A stretch of 64,000 nt of DNA from a virus: positions 1 to 64,000 of the IMG/VR virus record IMGVR_UViG_3300044971_002537. One strand, given 5' to 3'. Below are positions 141 through 55,904 of the stretch, piece by piece. The translations under genes and the position numbers were made by a program. The notes under the pieces were generated by a model. The model did no database searches, was not told the origin of the DNA, and was given only the letters and a program-made list of their open reading frames with translations. Numbering within the stretch: the first letter of the stretch is position 1; each line of letters starts with the position of its first letter.

Positions 141-860
141 TTATTTTTGGCGAGACTTCTTTTCCAAAGAATCAGAATCTTGATTCTTAATAAATCTGTA
201 ATATAAAGACTTTGACTTAATGTAGCTATAACCAGTTAATTCGGATAATTCTTTGATTATGTCTGTTGGCTTTTTATTATCTTTGTTTATTTGGTTCCAT
301 TTTTCTAGCTGCCATTTTTTTGTCAATCCTAAATACTGAGGAAAATATAATCTGAGCCAGTCTTTAAACATACATCTAGATATATTTTTTCTTTTAGCGA
401 AGCTTGTTTGTGATTCTTTTGGGTCAGTGATCCATTCATTTATCAATGAGATGATATCTGAATAAGGAATTGTAAGATTCCTATCTCTATTAGAGACCCT
501 ATCCTCTAACGAATGCTTCTTCCACTGAGACTTAGGCTTTTTAGTTCTAGATCTAGCATATGTCATATCTCTAGAACTTAAGTTAATATTACACAATTGA
601 TCCTTAAAAAACCTAATCAAAAAAGCTTCACGCTCTTCTGCCTCTTCCCTAGACTCTAAAGACCACAATATTTTTAGGAAAAAATCATACTTGTTTATTA
701 TTGCTAATTTGTGCTTGTTTGAGTCAGATCTCTTATGGTCTTTTTCTCTAAAGTATATATTCTTTTCTGACGAGACACCAACATAAAAAAGATTTTCAGA
801 TATGCTGTATGTAGAATAGGCACAATTCTTTTTATATAACCCATAGACGTAATGTTGCAT
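141..860 (-). CDS. GIY-YIG homing endonuclease
   Basis: 239 aa. The N-terminal GIY-YIG nuclease core is visible: a 'VYGLY' strand near residue 5, 'FYVGVS' around residue 25, then the basic helix and the glutamate-containing helix (EAEEREAFLIRFF). The C-terminal 100 residues are basic and resemble the helical DNA-binding repeats of free-standing phage homing nucleases. The ATG at 860 was chosen because GGAGG lies 6 nt upstream; an earlier in-frame ATG has no ribosome-binding site. The gene is AT-rich relative to its neighbours and sits alone between structural-type genes, as expected of a mobile endonuclease. It would nick or cut an intronless or genelless allele to promote its own spread. Confidence 0.85.
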   Translation of the reverse strand: MQHYVYGLYKKNCAYSTYSISENLFYVGVSSEKNIYFREKDHKRSDSNKHKLAIINKYDFFLKILWSLESREEAEEREAFLIRFFKDQLCNINLSSRDMTYARSRTKKPKSQWKKHSLEDRVSNRDRNLTIPYSDIISLINEWITDPKESQTSFAKRKNISRCMFKDWLRLYFPQYLGLTKKWQLEKWNQINKDNKKPTDIIKELSELTGYSYIKSKSLYYRFIKNQDSDSLEKKSRQK

Positions 861-914
861 ATGTATCCTCCTATAGCATAATCGCAAAAAGTGGCGATGC
901 AAACATTAATTTTA

Positions 915-23771: not shown

Positions 23772-24041
23772 CTAAAGCTCCTTAGTCTCATTGTCCCACT
23801 GATATTTTCTTACTGCCGCATCTAGCATATCTTTCATATGAGAAGCTCTTATGCCAGAACTTTCCTCGTACCAGTAGGAACCATTATAGGTTCGGTAAAA
23901 AGTAATGTCAGATTGCCATCTTTTTCGCCACAAGAACCCTACTTTCGTAAGCAGTTCTACTTCGACCAAATAATTGGTTAAACCAATCCTTTGAACCGAT
24001 TTGATATTGTACTTGTGTTCTATCATGCTTGGTCCCCACAT
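23772..24041 (-). CDS. hypothetical protein
   Basis: 89 aa. The ATG at 24041 overlaps the dnaE C-part stop (TAATG), with GGAG 5 nt upstream. Aromatic-rich, beta-type (FYRTYNGSYWYEESS). Not recognised. Confidence 0.55.
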   Translation of the reverse strand: MWGPSMIEHKYNIKSVQRIGLTNYLVEVELLTKVGFLWRKRWQSDITFYRTYNGSYWYEESSGIRASHMKDMLDAAVRKYQWDNETKEL

Positions 24042-25150
24042 TACAGCTCCACAACCCTCTCTATCACGAATGAGCGTTTCTTCCCTAATTCCCCATAGAT
24101 GGCGACCATCGCCCCGTCGTAGAGGAATCTGCCGTAGGTCTCATATTGATCAGCAAAGCACACAATATTATCGATTTCAGCGGAATCGTCGCTTGCGACG
24201 ATGAAGCACATCTTCTTGTCTGAAGACTTAATCACATGTTCTTTAACCTCAGAGATCCTTACGACGATAGTCCTCTTGCCCGGCTTACCCCTCATAATTT
24301 CTTTGCAGGTGGTATCCGCTACGCCTGCTGCTAAGCAAGCGTCCATATAGCTACATGACAGAGTAATCCCGATCGCAGCCTCCTCAGACGCAGCGATCTT
24401 CCCCGGCAGGTCGTGTAAGATTCTACCCGGATTTGTCAAGCGTTCAAGGATAATCTTCAATTTTTCTACGCGACCCTTGGTGGCACAGGCTCCACCTTCC
24501 TTCTTAAGCAGACAAGCTGCTTCCAAGGCTTCTGCTGGCGTCTTGAAGGACCTGTCCGTAAAGAAAGCCAGCTCTTTGTCGGACAGGTCAGAGAAGCACT
24601 CGTAATAGTGGAGCAGGGCCGCTCTGGAAACCCCCAGATAATGGAAGCACCCACAGTTAATGAGAGCTTCACAGGTCCTCTTGTTGATATGTGGCAGGAT
24701 TTCAGTCAGGTAGGTGACTAGGGATGCTCGAACCCCGTGAGTTCGCATTAATGCGAATAGCTTCTCTAATTCGCGATTAGCTACACCTTTGATATGGGAG
24801 AGGCCAAATACAACAGCCTCTCCCTTGATGAAGAAACCTTCCGTGAGGTATTCACACGAGGGCGGGAGAATCTCGATATTGTCCAACTTAGCAGACAGAA
24901 CCAGATTACGGACTTCCGCATGTGGATCTAACTTATGAGATGAATACTTTAACCATACCTCATAGAACTTTAGTGGTTTGTGGGCCTTGATATATGCCGA
25001 CCAATAAGAAGGGAATGAATAAGATACCGCGTGTGAATTGCTTGTAGCTACTCCGTTGGCGAAATAAATATGAGATTCTGAGTCTACCTCGATATCTACC
25101 GATCTAGAGGTTCCCAAAGAAGAGACTGAGAGTATTCTTTTAGCTTGCAT
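24041..25150 (-). CDS. dnaE: DNA polymerase III alpha, C-terminal part with intein C-half
   Basis: 369 aa. Residues 1-38 are an intein C-terminal fragment (AKRILSVSS; VDIEVDSESHIYFANG; ending TSN). The extein then begins SHAVSYSFPSYWSAYIKAH, the DnaE segment normally following FNK, and continues with fingers/beta-binding-region features (ILPPSC, FGLSHIKGVANRELE) and an OB-fold-like end. The penultimate intein residue is Ser rather than the usual His. Trans-splicing with the piece at 26067-27683 would restore the chain. I chose the ATG at 25150 (GAGG 7 nt upstream) because the intein starts there; an upstream in-frame start lies inside the endonuclease gene. Confidence 0.85.
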   Translation of the reverse strand: MQAKRILSVSSLGTSRSVDIEVDSESHIYFANGVATSNSHAVSYSFPSYWSAYIKAHKPLKFYEVWLKYSSHKLDPHAEVRNLVLSAKLDNIEILPPSCEYLTEGFFIKGEAVVFGLSHIKGVANRELEKLFALMRTHGVRASLVTYLTEILPHINKRTCEALINCGCFHYLGVSRAALLHYYECFSDLSDKELAFFTDRSFKTPAEALEAACLLKKEGGACATKGRVEKLKIILERLTNPGRILHDLPGKIAASEEAAIGITLSCSYMDACLAAGVADTTCKEIMRGKPGKRTIVVRISEVKEHVIKSSDKKMCFIVASDDSAEIDNIVCFADQYETYGRFLYDGAMVAIYGELGKKRSFVIERVVEL

Positions 25151-26025
25151 CCTATTTCCTCTGAACGGTTTAAAATGTCGCATTCCCATAATCTGATGAA
25201 TCTCTCGCCGGTCATTATGGCGTTCTTCTTATAGTCATTTACAGCATTTACTTTTTGAGTTTTGGTTTTTGGGCCATTGGGATAAATCTTAGGATTAGAG
25301 TGAAAATAGTCTCCGTCAACTTCGAGATACGTGTCCAGATCTATAAGGTAGAAATCGAATGAGAAGAAGGATACTCTTTTTTCCTCTTCATATTTGACAC
25401 CGATGGAGTCTAGGATTTCAGCCATTCTAATATGCGGCTTGCTTTTAGTCTGCTTGAAGACGCCTCTCTTTATCGAGGCTAGAGTAGTTTCTCTTAGCCG
25501 TTGTTTCGTCTTCTCTGAATGGGGCATTCCAGTATGGCCATGTACTAATCTTTTCTTTGCCGATTCACTTTGTTTACTCTTGGTCTCGTCTGAGAATTTC
25601 ATCCCGAGACGATCTTCTCCTATTTTCTTCATGATGTCTGAAGTATCGGCAGTCAGCCCCTTATTCCATGCTGGCTTTTTGTACATGGGGTTGTTTTCCC
25701 CAAGCCTTTCGGTCTTAGCCCTTTTTGACCACTCTAGTGTCCCCGGAGTCCTACCGCACGCTAGTTTCTTGTATCTGATGTGAGCACCAGAGATTGTGAG
25801 CTTTAGCGGTTTCTTACAAAGACCACAGGGACATTCTTCTCTAGGAATCTTTAACACATCTAGAAAGTACTCATCCAAACTTAACGAATGATCATTCTTA
25901 AGATGGTCTCTAAAAGCATGAGAGAAATATACTTTGCCGCCTCCTGCCTCCTTTTTGATATCTCCGAGTGATTTTTGACAAATTTCACATTTAGACCAGT
26001 CGTCTCGTGTAATCTCGTAACTCAT
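25096..26025 (-). CDS. homing endonuclease (Vsr-like EDxHD type) between dnaE halves
   Basis: 309 aa. The N-terminal region has two Cys-pair motifs (CEICQ; CPCGLC). The middle carries NUMOD3-like repeats (ENNPMYKKPAWNKGL, GMKFSDETKSKQS, GMPHSEKTKQRL). The C-terminal domain contains FDFYLIDLDTYLEVDGDYFHSN and a late RLWECDI, matching the Vsr/EDxHD endonucleases known from fractured, split-intein genes. It lies exactly between the intein halves and overlaps the start of the C-part by 55 nt. It would spread the split intein by cutting intein-less dnaE. Confidence 0.85.
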   Translation of the reverse strand: MSYEITRDDWSKCEICQKSLGDIKKEAGGGKVYFSHAFRDHLKNDHSLSLDEYFLDVLKIPREECPCGLCKKPLKLTISGAHIRYKKLACGRTPGTLEWSKRAKTERLGENNPMYKKPAWNKGLTADTSDIMKKIGEDRLGMKFSDETKSKQSESAKKRLVHGHTGMPHSEKTKQRLRETTLASIKRGVFKQTKSKPHIRMAEILDSIGVKYEEEKRVSFFSFDFYLIDLDTYLEVDGDYFHSNPKIYPNGPKTKTQKVNAVNDYKKNAIMTGERFIRLWECDILNRSEEIGCKLKEYSQSLLWEPLDR

Positions 26026-26066
26026 AGTATGGCCTTTCTTTATTAAGTCCCATACTATTGTATACG

Positions 26067-27683
26067 CTATTCCTCACACATCACTCTCTTATTTTCAGAG
26101 ATTATTTGCCACAGTGGAGTCGGAACACCATCTTCACATAGAAGCTTATGGTCTAGAGAGCATTCAATTTCATATCCGTCCTCTAAACAGACCTTGAATA
26201 GTTCCACCTCGCCATTTTCCATTTTATCTAGAACTTTAACCATGCCGTCTGGACTATTGACACAATCCCCTATCTTGAGTTCATCTATAGTTAAATTACC
26301 CCTATTAGAATCTACTATAGATAAAGGAGATACGCATTTATTAAACCCGTATCTCGCAGAAGCTTTGATATTGTCAAATAGTGATTTTGCTTCTTCGTCT
26401 TTTAGAATACCGACTCTCTTACATCCAGACAAGAATTGGTTTTCCAGAGAGAATAACTTTTTCGCATCCTTCTTCGCCGCCCCCTTCATCATTGAAAGAC
26501 TGTCAGCGGAGTTGAAGCCAGACAGTATCTTACAAATTCTCAGTAGGGTTTCTTGATAGATTAGGACACCGTAAGTGTCGATCACTTTGTTAATCGGAGT
26601 ATCATCTACTGCCTCTATTCCGTTCTTTCTATCAGCATAGACCTTGGTCATTGACCTTCCGGTCGTATCCCTAGCCTGAAGCGAACCGGGACGAATCACG
26701 CTTATGACTGCTGCAAGCTCTTCGATATCGCGAGGGCGAATTTCCTTAGACCAGTCCCTGCCGAGATGATTTTCGATCTGAAAACAACCCTTAGTATTTC
26801 CGGACCCAATAACATTCCAAGCTTCTTCGTCCGTAAGGGGCACGTCTACGATCCCAACGCCGTAGGCTTCTTGAATCTTATTGAGAATATCTACCCCGAG
26901 AAAGTCGAACTTAACAAGACCGGCCTTCTCCAGCCATGCCATATCAAAGGCGGCTATCGCCGAGCCATCTTTGGCGAGGCACATTGGGCTAACTTTAGCC
27001 ACTTCCTCAGAGGAAATGATTACGCCTGCTGCGTGTTTGCCCTGATTCTGGAAGGTCCCCTCTAGGGCGATAGCCTTACGGAAGATGTCGGCGTAGTCGC
27101 CGACTAAGATACCATCCTCAATTCGGCAATAGTCTGCGATTTTATCTCCATCGTTATGGAGCATCCATGAGATGATACTGTCTTCCCCTGTCTCTTCAAG
27201 TTGGTCGGAGATGGCTGCTTCGTCGGGGATTCCCTCCGTGACGATATTCATAGTTTCAAAGTCATAGCCGCCCTCGACTCGCATGACAGCTTTAACTGCG
27301 GAACGTCCCGATAACCGACCGAAGGTTGTAATCTGGCAGACCTTGTCAGGACCATACTTGGTCCTAACGTAATCGATAGCCTTCTCACGATAGTCCGTAG
27401 GAAAGTCCACGTCGATGTCGGGGAGGGCCGTAGAGGCCTTCGTGAAGGAGCAAGGCTTAGTTAGGTCGATATGGTCGACCTTGCCCGCTATGTACATAAT
27501 GAAGGAGTTCTTGGGATTACTCCGATCAAGCTGCACGTTCTTTAGAACGTGCTCATAGTAGGCTTTACCATCCGGCAACGAGTCTCGCAGAGACTCCTCT
27601 TCCAGTAAAAAGGAAGCGGCCCCATCAGAGATTTCCAGATGGCGTTCTAAGGAAATGATTTGCTCTGTCGACAATCCGGTCAT
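26067..27683 (-). CDS. dnaE: DNA polymerase III alpha, catalytic core with intein N-half
   Basis: 538 aa. Palm/fingers motifs: LPDIDVDF (catalytic Asp pair) near residue 86, QITTFGRLSGRSAVKAVMRV, KFDFLGVDILNKI (third Asp), GCFQIE, and the YGFNK before the junction. Residue 450 is the intein Cys1. Then come an A-block (CVSPLSIVDS...IGDCV) and a B-block with SLDHKLL, 89 aa in all, ending at the stop codon. The PHP domain and the GRGSSAG palm segment are absent here and are found at 35122-36108. GGAG 6 nt before ATG 27683. Confidence 0.9.
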   Translation of the reverse strand: MTGLSTEQIISLERHLEISDGAASFLLEEESLRDSLPDGKAYYEHVLKNVQLDRSNPKNSFIMYIAGKVDHIDLTKPCSFTKASTALPDIDVDFPTDYREKAIDYVRTKYGPDKVCQITTFGRLSGRSAVKAVMRVEGGYDFETMNIVTEGIPDEAAISDQLEETGEDSIISWMLHNDGDKIADYCRIEDGILVGDYADIFRKAIALEGTFQNQGKHAAGVIISSEEVAKVSPMCLAKDGSAIAAFDMAWLEKAGLVKFDFLGVDILNKIQEAYGVGIVDVPLTDEEAWNVIGSGNTKGCFQIENHLGRDWSKEIRPRDIEELAAVISVIRPGSLQARDTTGRSMTKVYADRKNGIEAVDDTPINKVIDTYGVLIYQETLLRICKILSGFNSADSLSMMKGAAKKDAKKLFSLENQFLSGCKRVGILKDEEAKSLFDNIKASARYGFNKCVSPLSIVDSNRGNLTIDELKIGDCVNSPDGMVKVLDKMENGEVELFKVCLEDGYEIECSLDHKLLCEDGVPTPLWQIISENKRVMCEE

Positions 27684-34805: not shown

Positions 34806-35125
34806 CTTATCTCCGGTCCATCGGGACCCATAAAGGTAGAGCTTCGTTCGTTGACCATGATAAAGTTCGGCACCATTTTGGGCTTTACAAGCCCACAAAA
34901 AATCTCCCAGTCGGCTGGTGCTGATGTATTGTACTCGATGAATTTGTCGTGTCTAGCGACAAACTCTGTTTTGCTGGGTTTTTCTGGAGGAAGCTCGCAG
35001 GTGTAAACCACATCAAAGCCACTCAGTTTTACTGGGCGGATGCCACAAGCATCAACTTTTTCTGTGAAATCCTTACGGATCTGGTTGATATGCTTTTCAT
35101 TGTCTGGATGTGTTAGGATTTTCAT
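34802..35125 (-). CDS. hypothetical protein
   Basis: 107 aa starting at GGCGAAGCC-ATG and overlapping the dnaE N-part stop (ATGA). Mixed alpha/beta with DVVYTCELPPEKP in the centre. Unknown. Confidence 0.55.
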   Translation of the reverse strand: MKILTHPDNEKHINQIRKDFTEKVDACGIRPVKLSGFDVVYTCELPPEKPSKTEFVARHDKFIEYNTSAPADWEIFCGLVKPKMVPNFIMVNERSSTFMGPDGPEIR

Positions 35126-36108
35126 GGCTTCGCCTTAATCGCTTCTAGCTCTTTCAGATAGATAGCTTCGAAGTCCCTGAATTCGTCAATGAAGGGATAC
35201 TCATCAAAGCTTAAATGCTTAGGATAGGCTCGGGCCGCGTTGAAGAAGCGACTGAATAGAAGTCCATAAGGCATTGGATCGACTAGGTTGATCCCAATCA
35301 GGTCGGAGACCAAACAGCCTGCGGAACTTCCTCTTCCGATACTGCACAACTGTCCATCGCTTCTCCCCTTATTGACAAAGTCTGATACAATAAGGAAATA
35401 ACCAGATAGATTGGCCAACTCAATAACCTTCATCTCGTATCTGACGCGAGCGTCATACTCGGCTTTCTTGATAGGATCGAAGTTCTTCGTATGCTCTGCG
35501 AATCCCTCTTTTACTTTAGTCCAGAGTAGCTCAACTTCCCCGTCAGAGAATTTGGGGAGTTTTGGGGGAGCAGCAATTTCGAAATCTTCGAATTCATCGA
35601 TGAACGCATCATAGTCTATGTTTAGTTTAAGGCTAGGAGGGATCTCATCATACCCCATCATATGGAGACCTGCGGTCTCCTCTGTAAGCTCTGAGAGCTT
35701 GATTTTCAGTCCTAAGCACCGCATGATTCGATAGAACTCTTCATCAGACTTCTCTACATAGCGGCAGTCGGGGAGCTTTCCGGTAAAAGAATAGAGATGG
35801 GGTGAATTGGCTAAGGTGTCCCGATTGAGCCGGGCATGAATAGAGAACTCGTTCACGACAGACAATAGATCCTTCCATCCCTGAAGATTCTTGCAGAATG
35901 TGTAAGTCTCGCCAAAGTCGCACCCAATAATAGGTTTGATTTTGGCAGACTTACACTCTTCAATAAACTCCAGAGCGGCAGAGACATTGCCAAAGTCGCA
36001 GAGGCCCACTGCCTCATAACCTAAAGCTTTAGCCTTCTGTGCTATTTCCTTAGGCTTTGAGAAGGCTCGGTGAATGCTGTAATGGGTTCTATTGATCAGT
36101 GGTAACAT
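35122..36108 (-). CDS. dnaE: DNA polymerase III alpha, PHP and N-palm part
   Basis: 328 aa. Residues ~1-200 are a PHP domain: THYSIHRAFS, LGYEAVGLCDFGNV, KPIIGCDFG. Residues ~235-290 are the first palm segment of DnaE: GYFLIVSDFVNKG, CSIGRGSSAGCLVSDLIG, DPMPYGLLFSRFFN. The chain stops before the PDxDxDF catalytic motif, which is in the separate gene 7.4 kb downstream. No intein blocks occur at this break, so this is a natural gene split, not a fractured intein. Phages with split DnaE are known in general; the two parts must assemble non-covalently. Confidence 0.85.
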   Translation of the reverse strand: MLPLINRTHYSIHRAFSKPKEIAQKAKALGYEAVGLCDFGNVSAALEFIEECKSAKIKPIIGCDFGETYTFCKNLQGWKDLLSVVNEFSIHARLNRDTLANSPHLYSFTGKLPDCRYVEKSDEEFYRIMRCLGLKIKLSELTEETAGLHMMGYDEIPPSLKLNIDYDAFIDEFEDFEIAAPPKLPKFSDGEVELLWTKVKEGFAEHTKNFDPIKKAEYDARVRYEMKVIELANLSGYFLIVSDFVNKGRSDGQLCSIGRGSSAGCLVSDLIGINLVDPMPYGLLFSRFFNAARAYPKHLSFDEYPFIDEFRDFEAIYLKELEAIKAKP

Positions 36109-46732: not shown

Positions 46733-46850
46733 GTCCTCAGAACTCTGACGCTGGCAGATTCGAACTGCCTCGGTGGTAGCTAACCGTGTTCCCACAACTT
46801 TTCATCGGAGTCGAACCGAATGCCTTCCTTTTCGTCAGAGTCCGGAGGAC
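46733..46850 (-). ncRNA. tRNA-like structured RNA candidate
   Basis: The ends pair in a long closing helix: GTCCTC/GAGGAC, a 3x3 internal loop, and ACTCTGACG/CGTCAGAGT. Inside are two hairpins with T-loop-like sequences (GGCAG/CTGCC with TTCGAAT at 46753-46769; CATCGG/CCG-ATG with TTCGACT at 46803-46822) and short stems between them. It is too long (118 nt) and wrongly ordered for a tRNA. The 3' end of the HNH gene overlaps its 5' helix. Confidence 0.55.
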
Positions 46851-47401
46851 TCATCAATTCGATTAGCAGCAACTAATCTGCAAAATTCTATGACTTGCTC
46901 GTCTGAATATTTGTTTCTAGCCATGTTCGCCATATGACAGACAAACCTTATGTTTCCGCGAACATATCCTATCGAGTTATCTATTCTGTCTACTGAAGCA
47001 CAATAGGCAGTAATCCTAGATTTTAAACTATCCTTCATTGTTCTTAGGGACATTTTTATTCCAGCGAATGGGCAAATACCATCCTGACTATCCCAAACCT
47101 CTTTTAAGTAGCCGATATCAAAATCAATCGAACTATTCTTTTTCTTCCTATCCGGGTTCTTAATGCACTTCATATGAAGCCGAAATGGAGAAAGATCATC
47201 TCCCTCTCGCACACCTTTGATGTGGAGAGCTTGGCCATTTGTGTATGGAGCAAGTCTCTCTACATTTTCTGCTACTTTGCTACCGCACTTGTTATTGCAA
47301 TAGAATTTACATTTTCCCAGCCTAATCCTACGGTTATACTCACCAACTGGTTTTAGTACGATCCCGCCGCAATAATCACAATTTACTTCTATTTTTCTCA
47401 T
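46835..47401 (-). CDS. HNH homing endonuclease with zinc-ribbon N-terminus
   Basis: 188 aa. N-terminal Cys pairs CDYC and CNNKC (residues 8-40), then an HNH/EndoVII-type core GICPFAG...SVDRIDNSIGYVRGNIRFVCHMANMARN. Free-standing homing nuclease; AT-rich like the other mobile genes here. GGAGG 6 nt before the ATG. It lies between two structured RNA regions, one of which its 3' end overlaps. Confidence 0.8.
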   Translation of the reverse strand: MRKIEVNCDYCGGIVLKPVGEYNRRIRLGKCKFYCNNKCGSKVAENVERLAPYTNGQALHIKGVREGDDLSPFRLHMKCIKNPDRKKKNSSIDFDIGYLKEVWDSQDGICPFAGIKMSLRTMKDSLKSRITAYCASVDRIDNSIGYVRGNIRFVCHMANMARNKYSDEQVIEFCRLVAANRIDESSGL

Positions 47402-53287: not shown

Positions 53288-54121
53288 TTAGATGCCGTCA
53301 GGCCTGAAATCAATTAAAACTGGAAAGCGAGGGATGCCATCGGCAGTATACTCGAAGAATCTCACAGTTGCAAGAGTTCCAATATAAGATTCTGCATCTC
53401 GAAGATAATCCTCTCGGAGACTCTGATCGCCCTTTGGCACAGCTTCAAACTCGCCACCATCGCACCTTAAAAGAAAAATCGGCACATTCTCAAATTTTCC
53501 TTTACCAGCTTTGTATCCTATTACTTCAAACTCGTTGTCAGTGAACTCCTTGAACTTCAGGAGATCATAAGACCTCTTATTTTTCTGGTAGGCGGAGCCT
53601 ATATTTCTAATCATTGTTCCTTCCCAACCTTCGGATAGGAACTGCTTATGCCTAGTCTCAATCTCCTCATGGGAATTTACCAAGTACCACGGGACTACTT
53701 CAGTATGAGTAAGCCCACTCACGAGAGTGTCTAGATAGATGACTCGTTGGTGGTAGGTATCCTCATTGATAATATCAAAGGCATAGAAGAAGATGCTCCC
53801 CATCCGTGGGTCGCTTGAGTCGCCTTTACGAACTACCGAGGAAATCTGTTCAAAGGTGAGTGTACGGCTGTACAGTTCCCCATCTAGGACGATATCGTCA
53901 AATCCAGCATACTCACTGGTGATATGGTCTAGTCCAGTAAAAGTAGTGCCGGTTCTACTTGTTGTAGTCACCTGTCCGTCTTGAACGGACAAGATCATAC
54001 GACAGTTGTGAACAAGTATATTGTTAGCGAAATAGTTGTGGTTGTCCGCAACCTCTAGGTCGTACCTATCTGAGTCATTAGAGATTCTGACTATCTTTGA
54101 TATTTTTACAGATTTCATCAT
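53288..54121 (-). CDS. ATP-dependent DNA ligase, C-part with intein C-half
   Basis: 277 aa. Residues 1-39 are an intein C-fragment (KISKIVRISND; YDLEVADNHNYFANNILVHN). The extein starts at Cys40 with CRMILS and continues through the ligase motifs DIVLDGELYS (III), SIFFYAFDII, EGTMIRN (IV) and YDLLKFKEF (V), then an OB-fold. The penultimate intein residue is His and +1 is Cys, both standard. With the N-part at 55230-55904 it would rebuild the KxDG adenylation site. It overlaps the endonuclease gene by 44 nt. Confidence 0.9.
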   Translation of the reverse strand: MMKSVKISKIVRISNDSDRYDLEVADNHNYFANNILVHNCRMILSVQDGQVTTTSRTGTTFTGLDHITSEYAGFDDIVLDGELYSRTLTFEQISSVVRKGDSSDPRMGSIFFYAFDIINEDTYHQRVIYLDTLVSGLTHTEVVPWYLVNSHEEIETRHKQFLSEGWEGTMIRNIGSAYQKNKRSYDLLKFKEFTDNEFEVIGYKAGKGKFENVPIFLLRCDGGEFEAVPKGDQSLREDYLRDAESYIGTLATVRFFEYTADGIPRFPVLIDFRPDGI

Positions 54122-55154
54122 ACAGCCTAGAAAGTGTTTCAGATTTATTAGTATTGAGATCTAATTCCCAAACATACAGAATTACATACCCAAAAGACTC
54201 TATATGCGATCTCTTTATTGAATCTTTGAGCCAAATATCTTCGGCAGATATGTCGCCACGCCACGTATTTATTAGGTCAGTAGGCTTATATAGACTGGGG
54301 TTAGCATGCCATTTATCTCCATTCACCTCAACACAGATCTTATGATCAATGAGTCTTATATCAGCTATAGGAGAATAAATTCTCTGCTTAGTCTCACAAT
54401 ATTTAGAGAATATGGCTGATTCATTTTCATGCAATAGTTTTTTCTCAAACAAAAAAGTAGACACGGCTCTATGAATCTTAGAGGTTTTACCATCCCCTTT
54501 CCTGCCTCCCGGTCTCTGACACGCATGCTCGAAACCATACTTATCTAAGTTGGTCTGTCTAGCCTTTTCTTTGATCTCTTCGGACTGAAAAACATTGACG
54601 CATCCGTATTTAGCTAAAGCACTATTAACCTTCTTATCCTTAACCTCTTTTGACTGAGAGACATTCTCGCATCCGAATCTTTCTATAACGGTCCTTTTGT
54701 ATTGATCACTGACCGTCTTTAGCTTTTTAGAGTCACTAATCGAGTGAGTTTGTATGCCAAATTTTTTAGCATATCTTATTACCTCGCTAGCATGAGTGAT
54801 GAACTCTGGAGAGAAAAGTTTCTTAGCTATATAGTTGGCTGAGTATAAGGGAAGGTACTTCTCTAGGTTCTCTTTTGTTAGGTATTGTTTTGCCCTCAAA
54901 GTACTAGAAGTTTTCTTGCCCTTTTTGGGCTTACCCTTTGCTGAACAACTTCTACATAATGGCAATCTGGTTTTAAATAACGAGGTAGAGGTTATCTCAT
55001 ATTCGTGCCCGCAATCACATTTTACCAGAAGTATATCATATTGAGAGGCATATCCTTTAGCAACCCTAGTTTTTTCCCCAACCTTGTCGATCACGACAAA
55101 ATTTAAGAATCTCTGATTGACCCACTCTTGTCTGCTTCTGTGATCTTGACTCAT
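54078..55154 (-). CDS. homing endonuclease (Vsr-like EDxHD type) between ligase halves
   Basis: 358 aa. N-terminal zinc-type CDCGHEYE and CRSC motifs, a middle with three 'kyGceNvsQsxEvkxk' repeats (RFGCENVSQSKEVK; KYGCVNVFQSEEIK; KYGFEHACQ), and a C-terminal nuclease domain with PIADIRLIDHKICVEVNGDKWHANP, matching the EVxGxxxH-type fractured-gene endonucleases. GGAG 6 nt before the ATG at 55154. It is a distant relative of the dnaE one at 25096-26025. Confidence 0.85.
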   Translation of the reverse strand: MSQDHRSRQEWVNQRFLNFVVIDKVGEKTRVAKGYASQYDILLVKCDCGHEYEITSTSLFKTRLPLCRSCSAKGKPKKGKKTSSTLRAKQYLTKENLEKYLPLYSANYIAKKLFSPEFITHASEVIRYAKKFGIQTHSISDSKKLKTVSDQYKRTVIERFGCENVSQSKEVKDKKVNSALAKYGCVNVFQSEEIKEKARQTNLDKYGFEHACQRPGGRKGDGKTSKIHRAVSTFLFEKKLLHENESAIFSKYCETKQRIYSPIADIRLIDHKICVEVNGDKWHANPSLYKPTDLINTWRGDISAEDIWLKDSIKRSHIESFGYVILYVWELDLNTNKSETLSRLYDEICKNIKDSQNL

Positions 55155-55229
55155 GTCTGGCTCCACTAATAGAAAGAAATAATATTCCATCTATTAATAC
55201 GCCCAAGATAGACGTGAGTTAATAAAAAA

Positions 55230-55904
55230 TCAATATTCCATCAACTTTTCGTCACCAGACAACTGGTCTACTCTCCTCCAACATTGCAAATCTGGCAGAA
55301 ACACCTTGTGATTCCCGGTCAGTCGCAGCTTCGCCCCGGTCTCTGTCTCTATTTCATACCAGACGACATCAGAACTGCTCACTTCGGGCGTGTCACCGCC
55401 TTTATTCTTAAAGAAGTTCAATACCTTCTTGTATTCCACCCGATTGGTAATTACATTCAGTGATGCGACAGAACAATCTAATTTTCCATCTACTATTGAC
55501 TTTATTGGGATATATCCTAGCTCTTTTGTCTTAATTAAAGAGTCTCCAGATAAACACCCGTCAATCTTTGGGGATACCACACAAGGAAACTTCACCTTTT
55601 TACTGTGGTCCTTATATTTATGGGCGAGCATTGGCAGATTGGGAGCCTCTGTAGGAAGCTCCACCGTGTACCCCTTCCGGTCCTTCTGCTTATTCCAGAG
55701 GCCTTGGGCCTCTGAAATAGCCTGAGACTCCGCAGTCGTCTCATTGGAGCGACCGACGTTCTTGGCCTCGCAAGTCACCAGAGTCTCTTGTAGTGCTCCG
55801 TTCAGGAGCCCATGAGATACTGAGTAGGTGCCACCTTCGGTAGAGACAGACCAAACTCGAACTTTGCCTTTAGAGTCAAGTTTATGTAGTGTTGGCAAAC
55901 TCAT
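55230..55904 (-). CDS. ATP-dependent DNA ligase, N-part with intein N-half
   Basis: 224 aa. Residues 1-85 form an N-terminal accessory domain, then PMLAHKYKDHSKKVKFPCVVSPKIDG ends at the catalytic Lys113-x-Asp-Gly. The intein begins immediately at Cys117 with CLSGDSLIKT (A-block) and has a B-block GNHKVFLP; 108 intein residues to the stop. The insertion site is therefore inside the adenylation active-site motif, so unspliced protein is dead. GGAG 7 nt before the ATG. Confidence 0.9.
   Translation of the reverse strand: MSLPTLHKLDSKGKVRVWSVSTEGGTYSVSHGLLNGALQETLVTCEAKNVGRSNETTAESQAISEAQGLWNKQKDRKGYTVELPTEAPNLPMLAHKYKDHSKKVKFPCVVSPKIDGCLSGDSLIKTKELGYIPIKSIVDGKLDCSVASLNVITNRVEYKKVLNFFKNKGGDTPEVSSSDVVWYEIETETGAKLRLTGNHKVFLPDLQCWRRVDQLSGDEKLMEY

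Follow-up and report, generated by a model that had tools for sequence, protein, structure and literature searches.

Fractured genes, in which an enzyme of DNA metabolism, mainly of phages, is broken by a split intein, are a described kind of gene (Dassa et al. 2009, Nucleic Acids Res 37:2560), and a free-standing, often Vsr-related endonuclease gene lies between the halves. A further case is phage MIJ3, where a split intein divides the PolB gene and an HNH endonuclease gene lies in between (PMC6892783). Here we analyse a stretch of 64,000 nucleotides (the window), which forms part of the 139,854-bp IMG/VR virus record IMGVR_UViG_3300044971_002537 and in which a split intein fractures the DNA polymerase gene dnaE and an endonuclease gene, HEN1, fills the gap. 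The fracture is a real feature, beyond chance; that it bears a mobile element, in which a natural split intein is combined with a homing endonuclease of the EDxHD type, is our preferred reading, to which we give a probability of roughly 0.88.

dnaE is fractured by a split intein and an endonuclease gene

All parts of the dnaE locus lie on the minus strand, the core with the intein N-half (IntN) being followed by the HEN1 gene and then by the intein C-half (IntC) with the C-part:

26337..27683 (-), dnaE core (N-extein), 449 amino acids, palm and fingers, ending FNK; Pfam DNA_pol3_alpha and DNA_pol3_finger, collinear with two relatives, L002 and L003
26067..26336 (-), IntN, 89 amino acids (CVSPLS...VMCEE) plus stop; matched by the inteins gp41-1 and Npu DnaE, in alignment with L003 and the 11 other loci of the family
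25096..26025 (-), HEN1, predicted EDxHD/Vsr-like homing endonuclease gene, 309 amino acids; Vsr profile, I-Bth0305I and Vsr model matches, PHROG homing endonucleases
25037..25150 (-), IntC, 38 amino acids (MQAKRIL...VATSN); same C-half start in the gp41-1 alignment, 38 amino acids in 12/12 loci
24041..25036 (-), dnaE C-extein, 331 amino acids, beginning SHAVSYS, plus stop; HHH_6, DnaE model 751-1049

The core open reading frame (27683..26067) ends ...ARYGFNK/CVSPLSIV... (a slash marks the extein-intein boundary or the insertion point), with the Cys at codon 450, and stops after the 89 residues of IntN, 41 nt before the HEN1 reading frame. The C-part (25150..24041) starts at ATG 25150, with CAGAGGAAATAGG just upstream, and overlaps HEN1 by 55 nt, or by 94 nt from an alternative upstream ATG at 25189; its Shine-Dalgarno sequence is located within the endonuclease gene. 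It encodes IntC, ...HIYFANGVATSN, then SHAVSYS and the remaining DnaE, the junction reading ...YFANGVATSN/SHAVSYS. On the DnaE model PRK05673 the core occupies positions 400-752 and the C-part 751-1049, and therefore no dnaE residues have been lost at the junction; the joined exteins run collinear with those of L002, which lacks an intein, and of L003, which has one, and neither alignment shows a gap at this point. An earlier note, made from the letters of the window, had described exactly this layout (an 89-residue intein N-half from the Cys after FNK at codon 450, SHAVSYS as the exact DnaE continuation after the C-half, and an endonuclease gene overlapping the C-part by 55 nt), and the reading frames, the DnaE model and the alignments bear it out. 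The C-extein is 88-92% identical to those of L002 and L003, with a ratio of nonsynonymous to synonymous substitutions (dN/dS) of about 0.05, which indicates strong purifying selection. A continuous dnaE in the same assembly, which the note had named as contrary evidence, was sought across all 139,854 bp, and neither an intact nor a second dnaE was found in this record, which may be incomplete.

The joined window intein matches the gp41-1 intein structure (E 6.6e-12), aligning end to end from residue 9 with an identical C-half start, and, in the alignment to known DnaE split inteins that the note had proposed, Npu DnaE (2keq, E 3.8e-7). A scan of IMG/VR with the dnaE core gave four relatives. 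Among these, L002 has an uninterrupted dnaE at the insertion codon, ...YLFNKSHGISYS (FNKSHG), L003 has at the same codon a contiguous 127-amino-acid mini-intein (first residue Ser, end GVATSN) with which the joined window intein aligns over its full length, and L004 has a 399-amino-acid intein at a different dnaE site and none at FNK/SHS. It is the gp41-1 match, together with the uninterrupted site in L002 and the contiguous intein in L003, that places the locus beyond chance. The same core, scanned against 84,980 prokaryote genomes, returned zero relatives.

Twelve loci share the fractured layout

When a nuclease profile and, in a second round, its closest members were used for scanning, the top-ranking relatives of HEN1 (44-51% identity) proved to lie within dnaE genes that share the window's break point. 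Twelve distinct loci from different samples were retained (the window, L110-L118, L191 and L197), leaving uncounted two duplicates (L119, L192) and repeats of the same contigs (L189, L190, L193-L196). All twelve have FN[KARQ]/C, an IntN of 89-99 amino acids, an endonuclease of 295-309 amino acids, an IntC of exactly 38 amino acids and SN/SH, and the endonuclease and IntC frames overlap by 28-67 nt. This repetition supports the "fractured gene" interpretation of the earlier note, and the twelve IMG/VR loci are new here, a clear new family within the described kind. More distant relatives of the endonuclease are found elsewhere, for example beside likely tail tube genes and within recombinase-like genes, and because they occupy other places the HEN1 subclade goes with the dnaE site. 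Searched by tblastn, at the sensitivity of that method, INPHARED phage records held no close HEN relative and no split intein in dnaE.

Several further observations were made on these and other contigs. In L113 (1988-3394) and L114 (1818-3401) the fractured dnaE carries a second, contiguous intein further upstream, after RPG/C. In the related phages L005 (5265-9604), L020 (4924-9026), L110-L112, L116, L117 and L191 dnaE is broken elsewhere, after a KFDxLG motif, where a DnaQ-like exonuclease gene fills the gap and no intein was seen. Among L129-L188, EDxHD-type genes recur directly 3' of the likely tail tube gene in many contigs, and others come after recombinase-like or terminase-like genes.

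HEN1 resembles EDxHD and Vsr endonucleases

HEN1 alone has no Pfam match and matches PHROG homing endonuclease families. With a profile built from six such C-terminal domains, the only Protein Data Bank (PDB) matches below E 0.01 were to Vsr (1odg, 1vsr and 1cw0, E about 0.003), and five of the six profile members matched the Vsr family model. A first structure model, from six distant sequences, was poor, with a predicted local distance difference test score (pLDDT) of 47; rebuilt with ten close relatives it reached 77, and its best PDB matches were the I-Bth0305I catalytic domain (3r3p) and Vsr (1cw0), at probability 1.00 and E 2.5e-3 to 4.4e-3. Residues D224, E235, D239 and H242 are invariant across the six diverse and ten close relatives, and D283 is invariant in the six and replaced by E in one of the ten. 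By profile and by model, HEN1 is thus an EDxHD/Vsr-family endonuclease with a predicted Vsr-like catalytic fold, which agrees with the Vsr-like EDxHD assignment of the earlier note, and it would be expected to cleave DNA.

Signs that the element has moved between dnaE genes

Across the twelve loci mean identity is 0.51 for the endonuclease, 0.50 for the intein and 0.34 for the C-extein, and endonuclease and intein are more alike than the C-exteins in 66/66 pairs. Endonuclease distances are correlated with intein distances (Mantel 0.50, p 0.003) and uncorrelated with C-extein distances (rho 0.07, p 0.35). The element tree and the C-extein (host) tree reject each other (approximately unbiased test, p 3e-9 and 7e-14), and therefore the element has moved. 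The GC fraction is 0.39-0.42 in intein and endonuclease DNA versus 0.48 in the exteins. The best-surviving alternative, that the endonuclease is dead or otherwise employed and the element immobile and simply inherited, would accommodate the wide divergence of host dnaE and element alike and the partial correlation among N-extein, intein and C-extein distances; it is nevertheless unlikely in view of the strong tree conflict, of an endonuclease more conserved than the C-extein in every pair and of catalytic D, E, D and H residues invariant in ten relatives.

Comparison of the window with L003 adds a mosaic at the insertion. Their extein DNA differs by 15% over amino acids 1-257, by 30% over 258-449 (up to the insertion) and by 19% after it; the best-separated tract, amino acids 356-460 (38% vs 18%), was unmatched in 500 permutations, and the pair L002-L003 has no such divergent tract at 356-460. 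Within the intein, identity is 36% in IntN, 12% in the first 17 residues of IntC and 86% in its last 21. Such a mosaic of extein flank and intein is the pattern that co-conversion during homing repair predicts, and co-conversion is known from T4 homing (PMC2988022). Tentatively, the window allele may be an L003-like dnaE with a contiguous mini-intein that was overwritten, via homing repair, from a fractured donor; in reverse, L003 may descend from a split intein whose halves fused again. Should overwriting have occurred, which we think less likely than not, the 5' extein flank, IntN, the endonuclease gene and the start of IntC would be foreign, and the C-extein would be L003-like together with the 21 residues that end IntC. 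If this is true, split inteins also spread by converting contiguous ones, beyond breakage in place.

Splicing residues are conserved and DnaE is encoded in three pieces

The window intein has Cys1, the block B His (SLDH), block F DIEVD...H, the terminal Asn and Ser+1, and Cys1, the block B His, DIEV, Ser-Asn and Ser+1 are kept in 12/12 family members. The earlier note had taken the penultimate Ser, in place of His, as a departure that may change cleavage kinetics. This point is weak, the same Ser being present in all twelve members, in the contiguous L003 intein and in Npu DnaE, and since Npu DnaE likewise ends Ser-Asn the residue is no oddity.

The note's "catalytic core" holds for the palm and fingers; the PHP region is not in the core and has a gene of its own:

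35122..36108 (-), PHP part of DnaE, 328 amino acids; Pfam PHP and DNA_pol3_alpha, DnaE model up to 398

The PHP gene ends at model position 398 and the core begins at 400, across a genomic gap of 7.4 kb at which intein halves were looked for and none seen. PHP is separate in relatives G001-G003 too, and a similar break exists in phage Grayson, so that the PHP/core break has the appearance of an older fission. PHP, palm, fingers and C-terminal parts are thus all present, over three genes (36108..35122, 27683..26067 and 25150..24041), and with the PHP part separate a functional DnaE would derive from three genes.

A separate PHP part also lends some colour to the idea that the split intein is degenerate and non-splicing, its DnaE parts associating non-covalently as in the working intein-less split genes of phages (Aeh1 nrdA, phage 25 gene 43; PMC2988022). 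We consider this quite improbable, as decay is expected of unused inteins, whereas the essential residues, the 38-residue C-half and SN/SH have been kept in twelve diverged loci. An assembly artefact or sequencing error splitting an intact gene, for which a single metagenomic contig with overlapping frames might speak, is hardly credible, since gene order, the short leader and the overlapping restart recur across twelve diverged loci from different samples.

Under the mobile-element reading, core and C-part would be translated separately, and the intein halves would associate and splice in trans through Cys1, the terminal Asn and Ser+1, joining FNK to SHAV in a core plus C-part of 780 amino acids; the PHP protein, from its own gene, would presumably bind this product non-covalently. 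The endonuclease would be dispensable for splicing; HEN1 would be expected to cut dnaE of co-infecting phages near the FNK-SHA codons, and repair after the cut would copy intein, endonuclease and some flanking extein into the recipient dnaE. Several points weigh against this account. The net charges of IntN (-11) and IntC (-1) give no clear complementarity, the values being uninformative; the PHP part is distant and its binding to the core assumed; the fold-search E-values are modest (best 2.5e-3), profile and fold nevertheless agreeing; the tree comparison could suffer from saturation of the C-extein distances; and the mosaic flank could stem from ordinary phage recombination.

A covarying hairpin covers the start of HEN1

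26016..26066 (-), RNA hairpin at the endonuclease start; z -4.63, covariation in 10 relatives

The main stem pairs 26058-26050 with 26032-26024 and includes bases 1 and 2 of the AUG, and the HEN1 leader has the most extreme z among the 90 gene starts scored in the window. In ten aligned members (consensus TTAGTATG...AGGAGGCATACTAATG), 91.7% of cells of the predicted hairpin pair, four pairs are changed on both sides and no shuffle reaches this value, sliding the partner giving at most 51% pairing. Folded singly, L111, L114 and L117 give a weak or unclear hairpin, and L191 and L197 align poorly to it. In T4-type endonuclease genes such hairpins conceal the ribosome site (PMC2988022), and the HEN1-start hairpin probably limits translation of the endonuclease. 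Because the stop codon of IntN is often located within or beside the 5' arm, translational coupling to the upstream gene may be an alternative role.

Elsewhere in the window a gene for a 188-amino-acid Cys-rich protein with no Pfam family (46835-47401, minus strand) has a strong start hairpin (z about -4.3) and is possibly another free-standing endonuclease.

A second fractured gene encodes DNA ligase

Beyond what the earlier note described, the window also contains an ATP-dependent DNA ligase gene (55904..53288) fractured within the KxDG motif, at KIDG/C:

55233..55904 (-), ligase N-part ending KIDG plus a 108-amino-acid intein N-half; Intein_splicing, intein_Nterm
54078..55190 (-), HEN2, Vsr-like endonuclease gene, 370 amino acids, separating the two parts of the ligase; DUF7487, weak Vsr and DUF559 matches
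53288..54121 (-), intein C-half (39 amino acids, ...ILVHN) plus ligase C-part (CRMIL...); DNA_ligase_A_M, DNA_ligase_OB_2, intein_Cterm

The ligase of the near relative G002 is uninterrupted. In other phages the site takes further forms: L033 and L035 have a contiguous intein that bears a long insert, L031 has a split intein and no endonuclease gene, and L032 has both, with a HEN2 counterpart of the same type in the same place. The leader hairpin of the ligase endonuclease is weak (z -2.0).

In L025 (2576-3608, from G002) the uninterrupted ligase is followed by an opposite-strand HNH-like endonuclease gene, beyond which the ligase 3' end is present again. This second copy has 79% identity to the window ligase, which gives the impression that the endonuclease arrived together with a foreign gene end. 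L014 (4265-5857; record 87265-88860) encodes a 531-amino-acid HEN2 relative with DUF7487 and DUF559 near phage structural genes, and window positions 141-902 (minus strand) encode a protein with a GIY-YIG catalytic domain, probably a homing endonuclease.

Discussion

These loci address the open question of how split inteins and genes in pieces originate. In three close relatives one dnaE codon is empty, occupied by a contiguous mini-intein, or fractured with an endonuclease gene, and the ligase site occurs empty, contiguous, split, and split with an endonuclease gene, so that natural steps become comparable and testable. The twelve split inteins, with their 38-residue C-half and SN/SH, might serve as tools for protein ligation, and with its three genes the replicative polymerase lends itself to work on the assembly of such pieces.

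With the Dassa-type genes the window dnaE shares the broken DNA-metabolism enzyme and the free-standing endonuclease gene between the halves; it differs in being a phage dnaE broken at FNK/SH with its own endonuclease subclade, although dnaE may itself be among the enzyme types that Dassa et al. 2009 described. MIJ3 is alike in combining a phage DNA polymerase, a split intein and an endonuclease gene, but its polymerase is of family B and its nuclease of the HNH type. Rhodococcus phages Grayson and NiceHouse have dnaE mini-inteins at the same FNK/SH codon, and in Grayson the PHP gene is separate. Their inteins are unlike that of the window, being contiguous, about 150 amino acids long, without an endonuclease gene, ending His-Asn and only 20-24% identical.

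The closest solved intein is the split intein gp41-1 (6qaz, 6riz), which lies in a helicase gene and ends His-Asn, whereas the window intein ends Ser-Asn. I-Bth0305I, the EDxHD representative and best fold match for the HEN1 catalytic domain, has its gene in a group I intron of a phage recA, a different setting from that of HEN1 between intein halves. The cyanobacterial DnaE split inteins (Npu, Ssp) are likewise split in DnaE, and Npu ends Ser-Asn, yet they are only distantly similar to that of the window. They are inserted three codons upstream, at Y/CFN, and have no endonuclease gene between their halves. Membership in that family was rejected on the FNK/SH site and the intervening endonuclease gene, which together set the window dnaE apart from it.

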